DNA from: Halobacteriales archaeon QS_9_67_17
GTDB taxonomy: Archaea > Halobacteriota > Halobacteria > Halobacteriales > Haloarculaceae
Length of the DNA: 45,401 nt
NCBI GenBank assembly: GCA_003023185.1
Contig: PXSB01000084.1
Span: 1 to 45,401, forward strand
Direction: 5' to 3'
Shown here: piece by piece, positions 36,887 to 38,870 of the stretch
How the letters are laid out: every line of letters begins with the position of its first letter
How positions within the stretch are numbered: position 1 is the stretch's first letter
The notes under the pieces: model-generated
Database searches by the model: none
Seen by the model: only the letters and a program-made list of their open reading frames with translations
What the model was told of the DNA's origin: nothing
Position numbers and translations under genes: made by a program

Positions 36887-37899
36887 CCGTCGCGGAGTCG
36901 GTCGGTCACGGCCGGGAACAGCGCGTCCAAGTCGGCGTCCGGCTGGACCAGCTCGTACTCGCGGCCCGAGCGTTCGACCACGCCCGCGTCGTGGAGATGG
37001 TCGAGGTGTGCGAACGCCTCGCCGGGACCGTGCAGGATGTGGATGTTTCGGAGGCCGCCGAACAGCGCCGCAGACACCGCCCACGGCGTCGCAGGCCCGG
37101 CGGCGAGCGCGTCGACGACCCGGGCCGTTCGCTGGCGATGGTGGTCGATGATGTCGGCCGCCCGTCCCGGTGGGTCGACGATGGCACCCCGATGGCCGGG
37201 CCACGCGCGGGTGTAGCCGCGGTCGACGATGTCCGCCAGCGTGGTGAGATACTTCGCCAGCGGCGCGTCGACGCGCACGTCGGCCCCGCCGACGTTCGGC
37301 GTGTAGTAGGGGAGGAGTGCGTCACCGGCGAACAGTTCCGCGCCGTCAGCCCCGTCGAACGCGAAGCCGGTCAGTCCGGCGGTGTGGCCCGGTAGCCCGA
37401 CCGCCTCCAGCGTCACGGAGCCGAGGTCGAACCGCTCCCCGGCCTCGAACGTCGTCACCGTCGGGTCGGGGTTGTCGTCGGTGTTGGCGCTCAGGAACGA
37501 CAGCAGTTCCTCGCGCTCGGCCGGGGGCATCCCCCACTCGGTGATCTGTTCGCGGAACGTCTCGTCACCAGGGCCTTGCGGGTCGACCCGACCGGCGACG
37601 ATGCCCGCGTCGGCATCGTGGACGTACACCGGACAGTCGGCGTCGGCCTGTATCTCCCTCGCGAGGCCGGCGTGGTCGGGATGCCAGTGGGTGAGCAGTA
37701 TCCGGTCCACGTCGGCGAATTCGGCGTCCAACTCCGCGAGGCCGGCCCGCAGTTCGTCTATCGTTCGCGAGCGACCGAGGCCCGTATCCACCAGCGTGAG
37801 GGGCGCGTCGGGTTCGGTGCCGAGCACGTAGCAGTTGTTCAGCCCCTCGAAGGCCGCGTTGCCGAGCTGGATCTGGTGGAGTGCGAAAGGGAGATTCAT
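36868..37899 (-). CDS. Metallo-beta-lactamase fold hydrolase
   Basis: 343 residues. The metal ligands are in THWHPDHAG (H-x-H-x-D-H), the His of GLPGHTAG, the Asp of FAGDALLPY and the His of PGHRG. A C-terminal winged-helix-like region of about 75 residues (RTARVVDALAAGPATPWAVS onward) resembles LACTB2/GloB-like hydrolases that act on nucleic acids or thioesters. Its ATG overlaps the stop of the ubiquitin-like gene (ATGA), so the two are translated together. Substrate unknown. Confidence 0.9.
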   Translation of the reverse strand: MNLPFALHQIQLGNAAFEGLNNCYVLGTEPDAPLTLVDTGLGRSRTIDELRAGLAELDAEFADVDRILLTHWHPDHAGLAREIQADADCPVYVHDADAGIVAGRVDPQGPGDETFREQITEWGMPPAEREELLSFLSANTDDNPDPTVTTFEAGERFDLGSVTLEAVGLPGHTAGLTGFAFDGADGAELFAGDALLPYYTPNVGGADVRVDAPLAKYLTTLADIVDRGYTRAWPGHRGAIVDPPGRAADIIDHHRQRTARVVDALAAGPATPWAVSAALFGGLRNIHILHGPGEAFAHLDHLHDAGVVERSGREYELVQPDADLDALFPAVTDRLRDGYEPVH

Positions 37900-38174
37900 C
37901 GGCCACCTGCGACGGAAGGCGCGAGTATCAGGGTGTCGCCGTCGGAGAGCTCCGTCCTGTCTGTATCGCGCACCGGGCCGTCGGCGACGAGGAGGTTCAT
38001 ATTCTGTCGGAGTCGCCTCTCCCCGTCGAACAGCAGCGGTCCGAGGCCGTCGTGGTCGGCGTCGAGTTGGTCGAGCAGTGCCTGGACCGTCGTTCCCGCG
38101 GGTATCTCGCGTTCGATCCGTTTCTCACCGACCGCCTCCCGGACGGTGGCGTGAAACTCGCAGGTGACGCGCAT
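37896..38174 (-). CDS. MoaD/ThiS-type ubiquitin-like protein (SAMP-like) ending GGR
   Basis: 92-residue beta-grasp protein: VTCEFHATVREAVGEK, a helix TVQALLDQL, GLGPLLFDGE, NMNLLVADG and the C-terminal GDTLILAPSVAGGR. Proteins of this type carry a terminal Gly-Gly that is activated by an E1-like enzyme for sulfur transfer or for SAMPylation in haloarchaea. Here one Arg (CGA) follows the Gly pair before TGA, and the TGA overlaps the ATG of the MBL hydrolase. Unless the Arg is removed the tail cannot be adenylated. ATG 38174 chosen; the frame opens upstream without coding character. Confidence 0.88.
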   Translation of the reverse strand: MRVTCEFHATVREAVGEKRIEREIPAGTTVQALLDQLDADHDGLGPLLFDGERRLRQNMNLLVADGPVRDTDRTELSDGDTLILAPSVAGGR

Positions 38175-38264: not shown

Positions 38265-38870
38265 TCAGCCGACAGTCGTCGGGATGCCCTTCGTCTGTCG
38301 GTAGTCGCCGTCGAGTAGCGCGGTTATCTTCTCGACGAGCGCCGCGCGGTCCGCGTCGGTCCACGTCGCTGGCTCCGTCACCGGCACGACGAGGAACCCC
38401 CGGCCGCGGATGCCTGTCGCGTGGTGGCTGGCGGCGTCGACATCGACCTTCCGGAGCAGCGAGGTGTGCTGTTCGAGCGCGTAGCGGAGCGCTCGGTCAC
38501 CGACCGGAAAGAGGATGTGGGCGTTGATCGCCCGGAGTTCGGCGTCGAGGAAGCGCTCCTGCTCGTCGTACGCCGCCTCCGACGGTTCGCCGTCCGTGAT
38601 CCCCGGGTGTGCGTACGAGAGGAACGTGTTCGACAACTGTGGTTCGTCGCTGTACGCCTCGGCCGCGAAGCCAACTTCGGCCAGCACGGACTGGAGCCGA
38701 CGGCCGGTCTCCGTCTCGGTGAACGGCACGCCCGTCTCGACCCCGCCGTGGCGGGCGGGACTGTCGCCGATGAAGTGAAAGTCCGCGTTGGCGTCGCCGT
38801 AGCCGTAGGCCGCACCCCCCTCGATACGCATGCCGAACGGGTTGTGCACCCTCTCGGTGACGTTCTCCAC
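38265..38870 (-). CDS. Uracil-DNA glycosylase superfamily protein
   Basis: 201 residues. FHFIGDSPARHGG and the TGVPFTETETGRRLQ segment correspond to the first active-site region of family 4/5-like uracil-DNA glycosylases. YAHPGITDGEP and ILFPVGDRALRYAL are the later conserved parts. The classical 4Fe-4S cysteines of family 4 are absent; there is no Cys at all. Removal of uracil from DNA is the family role, but substrate is inferred. Starts at ATG 38870, 43 bp below the halocyanin stop. Confidence 0.8.
   Translation of the reverse strand: MENVTERVHNPFGMRIEGGAAYGYGDANADFHFIGDSPARHGGVETGVPFTETETGRRLQSVLAEVGFAAEAYSDEPQLSNTFLSYAHPGITDGEPSEAAYDEQERFLDAELRAINAHILFPVGDRALRYALEQHTSLLRKVDVDAASHHATGIRGRGFLVVPVTEPATWTDADRAALVEKITALLDGDYRQTKGIPTTVG

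Follow-up and report, generated by a model that had tools for sequence, protein, structure and literature searches.

A ubiquitin-like (UBL) protein of the ThiS/MoaD, SAMP type, encoded by a haloarchaeal contig, continues past its C-terminal Gly-Gly by one residue, and such capping is the rule in its subfamily and not a peculiarity of this gene. Its sequence and gene context suggest that it is probably made as a capped SAMP/MoaD-type precursor that would be trimmed by a JAMM protease and would work with the MBL-fold hydrolase to which it is coupled. The DNA analysed, referred to here as the window, is a stretch of 45,401 nucleotides from Halobacteriales archaeon QS_9_67_17 (contig PXSB01000084.1).

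The UBL gene was recognised from its open reading frame and a Pfam ThiS match, and lies on the minus strand at positions 38174-37896. It encodes 92 amino acids ending in SVAGGR, and its start methionine is the same in close homologues. The protein matches Pfam ThiS (PF02597) with 39.6 bits against a cut-off of 22.5 over residues 7-91, through to the Gly-Gly. It falls short of the cut-offs of SAMP1 in NCBIfam (NF041918; 55.9 bits, cut-off 60) and, narrowly, of archaeal MoaD (TIGR01687; 47.3 bits, cut-off 49.5). On the minus strand its last codons are GCA (37910-37908), GGT (37907-37905) and GGC (37904-37902), the latter two forming the Gly-Gly (37902..37907), followed by CGA (37901-37899), an arginine that forms a one-residue cap, and TGA (37898-37896). 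The ATG of the hydrolase occupies 37899-37897, and four bases, ATGA (37896..37899), are common to the two genes. Codon reading thus bore out the original prediction that the chain ends in AGGR, with CGA before a TGA that overlaps the next ATG; the protein has the make-up of a capped precursor, with a conserved Gly-Gly and then extra residues (GGR). Just upstream, at 38265-38870 on the minus strand, is a gene of the uracil-DNA glycosylase superfamily (Pfam UDG, 49.8 bits), a relative of which is likewise upstream in G083-G087, G116 and G123.

A sequencing or assembly error at the UBL-MBL junction would be easier to envisage given that the source genome (G000) is only 67.5% complete and lies in 102 contigs. 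Against this, a second genome, G086 (locus L035), encodes a diverged UBL protein (89% identical) and has the identical junction, GGT GGC CGA TGA ATC, with the same CGA codon. Because of this second copy, the read error at 37899-37901 that the original prediction had allowed for is unlikely, and an error at the junction as a whole is extremely improbable.

Capping was then assessed across the subfamily. At least 33 members were read among the matches listed, comprising 30 split copies, including that of the window, and three copies fused to the hydrolase, which came from further searches and not from the best 30 loci. Among these matches, Gly-Gly is kept in all 33 rows, two of the 30 split copies (L007 and L009) end exactly at Gly-Gly, and the other 28, including the window gene, carry at least one residue beyond it, whereas the original prediction had regarded the cap as peculiar to a single gene. 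The tails of the capped split copies are 1-27 residues long in 27 cases and 70 in one. When 392 genomes of the order were sampled, the listed matches fell into a group at or above 118 bits, all from family f1, and a group at or below 99 bits; the fusions score at most 99 bits, so fused or diverged members outside family f1 could escape this search. Sixty further regions from weaker matches, a few of them overlapping, contained no additional subfamily member, and in the last batch of weaker-match regions, checked for an adjacent MBL gene, none was found.

The original prediction had suggested that an old TGA stop may have mutated to CGA and shifted the end by one residue, which can be read as a recent event in this lineage only, in a protein that is losing its part in conjugation. 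CGA is one transition from TGA, and the locus of G123, described below, suggests that the domain can decay; however, 28 of the 30 split copies are capped, G086 has the same junction, and GG-TGA occurs in none of the 33 subfamily junctions among the matches listed. The nearest relative ending at Gly-Gly, L007, reads GGA TAG ATG, with 6 nt from the first Gly codon to the ATG against 5 nt in the window, so that an indel separates the two junctions, which also speaks against a simple TGA to CGA change. Recent stop loss is thus very doubtful. The further suggestion that the protein is no longer conjugated is disfavoured by the fixed Gly-Gly, and the relatives, far from all ending in GGR, have many different tails. 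We know of no functionally tested relative of the capped UBL protein.

No sequence is common to all the tails (R, RW, RR, QE, SR, AATTRLAEVAQ and others). Comparison of close relatives shows them changing more quickly than the core: in a trio from g15 the cores are 91-95% identical and the tails 64-73%, and since RLAE is common to all three tails, the tails are not wholly free to vary. The tree of the 31 capped or fused rows has a length of 10.7 changes per column. Over this length only 8 of 93 columns never vary; the two glycines belong to these, and their estimated site rates are the 11th and 12th lowest of 93, slow but not the slowest. Six copies from genus g11 (L008, L011, L012, L014, L015 and L020) have exactly two residues past Gly-Gly (RW, RR, QE, RR, QR and SV, respectively), the length of the QbsE cap. 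The cap reported for PtmS2 is of this length as well (PMC6006322).

In the genus of the window, three genomes (G083, G085 and G087) encode the UBL domain, Gly-Gly and hydrolase in one frame of 440 amino acids, with the junctions SVSGG-KPTLPFEMETVRLGN, SVSGG-KRTLPFEMETVRLGN and SVAGG-SATLPFEMEIVRLGN, respectively; both domains of the G083 chain are detected by Pfam. By tblastn, the window shares one gene order with G083, G084, G085, G086 and G087: HD, TatA, membrane protein, MBL, ubiquitin-like domain, uracil-DNA glycosylase, halocyanin-type and photolyase-type, where the names TatA, HD, halocyanin and photolyase were assigned by eye from the sequence and not by family search. In the subfamily tree, which is based on a short alignment and has a long fused branch (1.09), the fusions group with the window and G086 copies (support 96/85), G084 is placed next to this group (97/92), and all 33 members form one clade (96/93). 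The G084 junction reads GGT GGA TAG ATG GAC CTG CCG, with both parts in the same frame and the TAG between them, and the G083 junction reads GGT GGG AAG CCG ACG CTC CCC; frame and spacing are equal, and lysine stands in G083 where G084 has its stop codon. Within one genus, this locus thus takes three forms: the Gly-Gly is exposed in G084, extended by a single residue in the window, and continued into the hydrolase in the G083 type. As fused, capped and TAG-separated forms coexist and Gly-Gly is kept in every copy read, the stop is labile while the Gly-Gly is fixed.

The overlapping gene (37899-36868, minus strand) encodes an MBL-fold metallo-hydrolase of 343 amino acids (Pfam Lactamase_B, 74.8 bits), whose best solved relative is 2zo4 (E 2.5e-27), a Thermus protein. 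Its metal-ligand positions, H71, H73, D75, H76, H172, D193 and H236, correspond to the di-metal ligands of the MBL fold and are retained in 97% or more of the 44 sequences compared. The partner hydrolase carries the full ligand set expected of an active MBL fold and is predicted to be an enzyme. Among the matches listed, the MBL gene is next to the UBL gene in 24 of 30 split loci and is fused to it in 3 genomes, which strengthens its candidacy as a partner, as put forward in the original prediction. When MBL starts were inferred from where MBL homology begins, 21 of the 24 split pairs had an ATGA or GTGA overlap, two had abutting TAG-ATG and one a TGATG overlap.

The other six split loci, all from genus g11, have no MBL gene beside the UBL gene, and in the three g11 genomes sampled an MBL relative is present elsewhere. 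The MBL family is common throughout the order, with matches at E 1e-30 in 155 of 195 genomes, and at those MBL loci outside family f1 that were read, no ubiquitin-like frame was seen in front when judged by eye. A 33-residue stretch ahead of the MBL gene in G123 (L146) resembles the start of a UBL protein and looks like a decayed UBL remnant. This short frame, which begins MEITFEFRTALR, replaces the UBL gene and overlaps the MBL start. The hydrolase can probably act without the UBL protein. Because MBL genes are common without UBL, six g11 copies lack an adjacent MBL gene and G123 retains an apparent remnant, the link between the two proteins is strong locally and not universal.

Three other proposals concerning this gene pair were rejected. 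An aldehyde ferredoxin oxidoreductase (AOR), guessed from start codons as the downstream partner, proved on translation and tblastn to be the MBL hydrolase. The MBL protein as a covalent target of the modifier was set aside, as it has few lysines and their positions vary; the site most often occupied by lysine (128) has it in 15 of 25 coupled or fused MBL proteins, a set that excludes those of the window and G086, and is glutamate in the window. The ATGA overlap alone cannot account for the caps, because the six g11 copies without an adjacent MBL gene still carry two-residue tails.

The close coupling of the two genes also admits a reading in which the UBL domain binds the MBL protein non-covalently, as a subunit with a regulatory or structural task. 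The C-terminus of the domain would then never be activated, the Gly-Gly being a mere hinge and the caps and fusions harmless. In-frame fusions and 4-nt overlaps do couple the two proteins, and the MBL metal site is complete and conserved. A hinge, however, would not require Gly-Gly in every one of the 33 rows, in an alignment with no more than 8 invariant columns out of 93; six loci carry the domain without an adjacent MBL gene, and two copies end exactly at Gly-Gly. We consider such a non-covalent role rather unlikely. Another arrangement, to which we give a low probability, is that UBL and MBL form a self-contained module, modifier and enzyme as one unit, in which the hydrolase might act on the C-terminus of its partner as a thioesterase or deconjugating enzyme, or might stay inactive until the Gly-Gly is cut. 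Were this true, the stop codon would act in evolution as a switch that yields a polyprotein, a capped protein or a ready-made one, and an MBL-fold enzyme acting on a ubiquitin-like C-terminus would, to our knowledge, be a new class.

The preferred reading, a capped precursor trimmed by a JAMM protease, calls for such a protease and an activating enzyme in the genome. A search for JAMM-type proteases, as the original prediction had advised, identified two genes (PF14464 matches), both encoding the full HxHx7Sx2D motif (read in L042 and L144), and both lie outside the UBL-MBL operon; their presence lends support to its proposal that the blocked Gly-Gly may need trimming. The first and stronger JAMM gene is approximately 0.4 kb from an E1-like gene, and its product matches solved JAMM1 and Rpn11 chains; the second is beside a nucleotidyltransferase-like frame. 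In the ten genomes tried, G000 included, a ThiF-family (E1-like) match over the cut-off was found in all ten, as was the second JAMM type, and the stronger type was missing from G034. The distance from the E1-like gene to the stronger JAMM gene is below 0.5 kb in six of these ten genomes, 1.5-2.3 kb in G066 and G080, and 7 kb in G122. Of 146 genomes of the family, 57 have the stronger JAMM type (E <=1e-17), and every one of the 33 genomes found to carry the UBL protein is among them. At the genus level, all 6 UBL genera are among the 11 of 22 genera with JAMM (hypergeometric 0.006, ignoring relatedness), using UBL-positive and JAMM genome sets compiled by hand. This co-occurrence fits trimming, but it follows genus and is confounded by relatedness. 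The E1-like protein of the source genome (L042, contig C68) is without some 24 residues that are present in G086 between GVP and VTAENV; this is either a real deletion or an assembly slip, and the activity of this copy is putative.

In the proposed pathway, a JAMM metalloprotease would cut after the Gly-Gly and remove the arginine, and the exposed glycine would then be adenylated by the E1-like enzyme. The activated UBL protein would either carry sulfur in the form of a thiocarboxylate or modify other proteins, and the MBL hydrolase may also take part in the process. The cap might hold the UBL protein off the E1 until trimmed, or might merely be tolerated where trimming is routine. A point against this pathway is that a single-residue cap offers a JAMM protease little to act on. 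Instead of a dedicated protease, an unspecific carboxypeptidase could take off the arginine; the window cap is indeed one residue, and no protease gene was seen adjoining the UBL-MBL pair in the window. The longest tails, of 27 and 70 residues, and the fusions to an entire protein, however, would need an endoprotease acting at Gly-Gly, and unspecific clipping accordingly seems hardly probable.

Paralogues, labelled SAMP1-like or SAMP3-like by their C-terminal motif, served as controls. An end exactly at Gly-Gly is seen in 9 of 11 SAMP1-like paralogues (0 of 1 in a later set) and in 16 of 37 SAMP3-like ones (9 of 11 in the later set). The product of the gene adjoining the SAMP3-like gene has GG as its very end in 37 of 37 distinct copies, once rows without a stop inside the locus were dropped. 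From these counts, exact ends are common among relatives and caps are found there too, while the subfamily is capped almost throughout. The source genome has three other ThiS-family matches besides the window gene, of which two end exactly at Gly-Gly and exceed the SAMP1 cut-off (119.9 and 96.5 bits). The fourth ThiS-family gene of this genome (L002, contig C63) has Gly-Gly and a 22-residue tail, CTCAVASYQIGITHAFHAVSHR, before its stop.

The SAMP3-like gene and its small GG-ending companion were seen together in L071, L080, L081, L082, L084, L088, L151 and L161, all from other genomes, and in L001 of the source genome. The two are fused in 6 of 37 loci into a chain that resembles a two-unit polyprotein, with one Gly-Gly inside it and another at its end; two more SAMP3-like fusions occur in the later set, where only the start of the tail was read. 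The companion has no significant match in Pfam or NCBIfam. It resembles the published description of arCOG06308 (PMC2948915).

No report of a UBL/MBL pair or fusion in archaea was found among the listed titles and abstract openings of the open-licence literature. MoaD fusions occur in archaea according to PMC11237513, in which the word 'lactamase' was not found; in a survey of archaeal UBL gene context (PMC2948915), neither 'lactamase' nor 'hydrolase' was found. Capping and trimming are already known, and what distinguishes this case is the MBL partner, the loose tails and the presence of three states within a genus; of these, the partner and the three states did not come up in the literature searched. 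If our reading is right, archaeal UBL precursors with a removable cap would be the norm in a haloarchaeal subfamily, and the three forms at one locus in one genus would be natural substrates for testing whether archaeal JAMM proteases mature modifiers in the way that ubiquitin is matured by eukaryotic enzymes. Attention would also be drawn to the MBL hydrolase as a partner, so far unstudied, of such a SAMP-type protein.

Among known systems, the nearest solved structure to the UBL protein by sequence is haloarchaeal SAMP3, 2m19 (E 6.6e-9; profile 5.5e-23), the structure of HVO_2177. HVO_2177 is identified as SAMP3 in PMC4500146. The SAMP3-like rows fall outside the 33-row clade, and their partner gene encodes another GG-ending protein, not an MBL protein. 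The CysO system of Mycobacterium employs Mec+, a JAMM-type protease. There, according to PMC3227635, Mec+ releases Cys from CysO, removing a single residue joined to the carrier C-terminus; that Cys is added enzymatically, whereas the window arginine is encoded. In Caldiarchaeum, PMC6043591 describes archaeal precursors with a tail past Gly-Gly and JAMM trimming, namely CsUb, with a 9-aa tail and CsRpn11, and the CsSAMP precursors, cut by CsJAMM; in contrast, the tail of the subfamily described here is fixed in neither length nor sequence. HvJAMM1 of Haloferax volcanii cuts a SAMP1-MoaE fusion in vivo, exactly after the C-terminal Gly (PMC4443979). This fusion and natural MoaD-MoaE fusions likewise combine a UBL domain, an internal Gly-Gly and a partner enzyme in one chain; the fusion tested was, however, made in the laboratory with MoaE as partner, whereas the fusions predicted here are natural and have an MBL hydrolase as partner. 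In Iyer et al. 2006 (PMC1779556), JAB is proposed to free fused ThiS/MoaD, and an MBL gene is likewise found beside ubiquitin-like pathway genes in bacterial E2-E1-JAB operons. The operon concerned (row 6a) consists of two genes, for a triple-module E2-E1-JAB protein and an MBL protein, and in the passages on it no UBL domain is coupled or fused to the MBL protein. The QbsD substrates, and PtmS2 (GG-MV) and PtmS3 (GG-C) with the JAMM protease PtmS1, are likewise ThiS/MoaD carriers with one or two residues past Gly-Gly and a JAMM gene in the genome, and a carrier whose cap is MV or one C requires a QbsD-type protease (PMC6006322). Those systems serve natural-product pathways, with PtmS1 clustered with PtmS2 (PMC6006322), whereas here the JAMM genes are elsewhere in the genome, cap length varies between 1 and 70 residues and an MBL hydrolase is encoded alongside.
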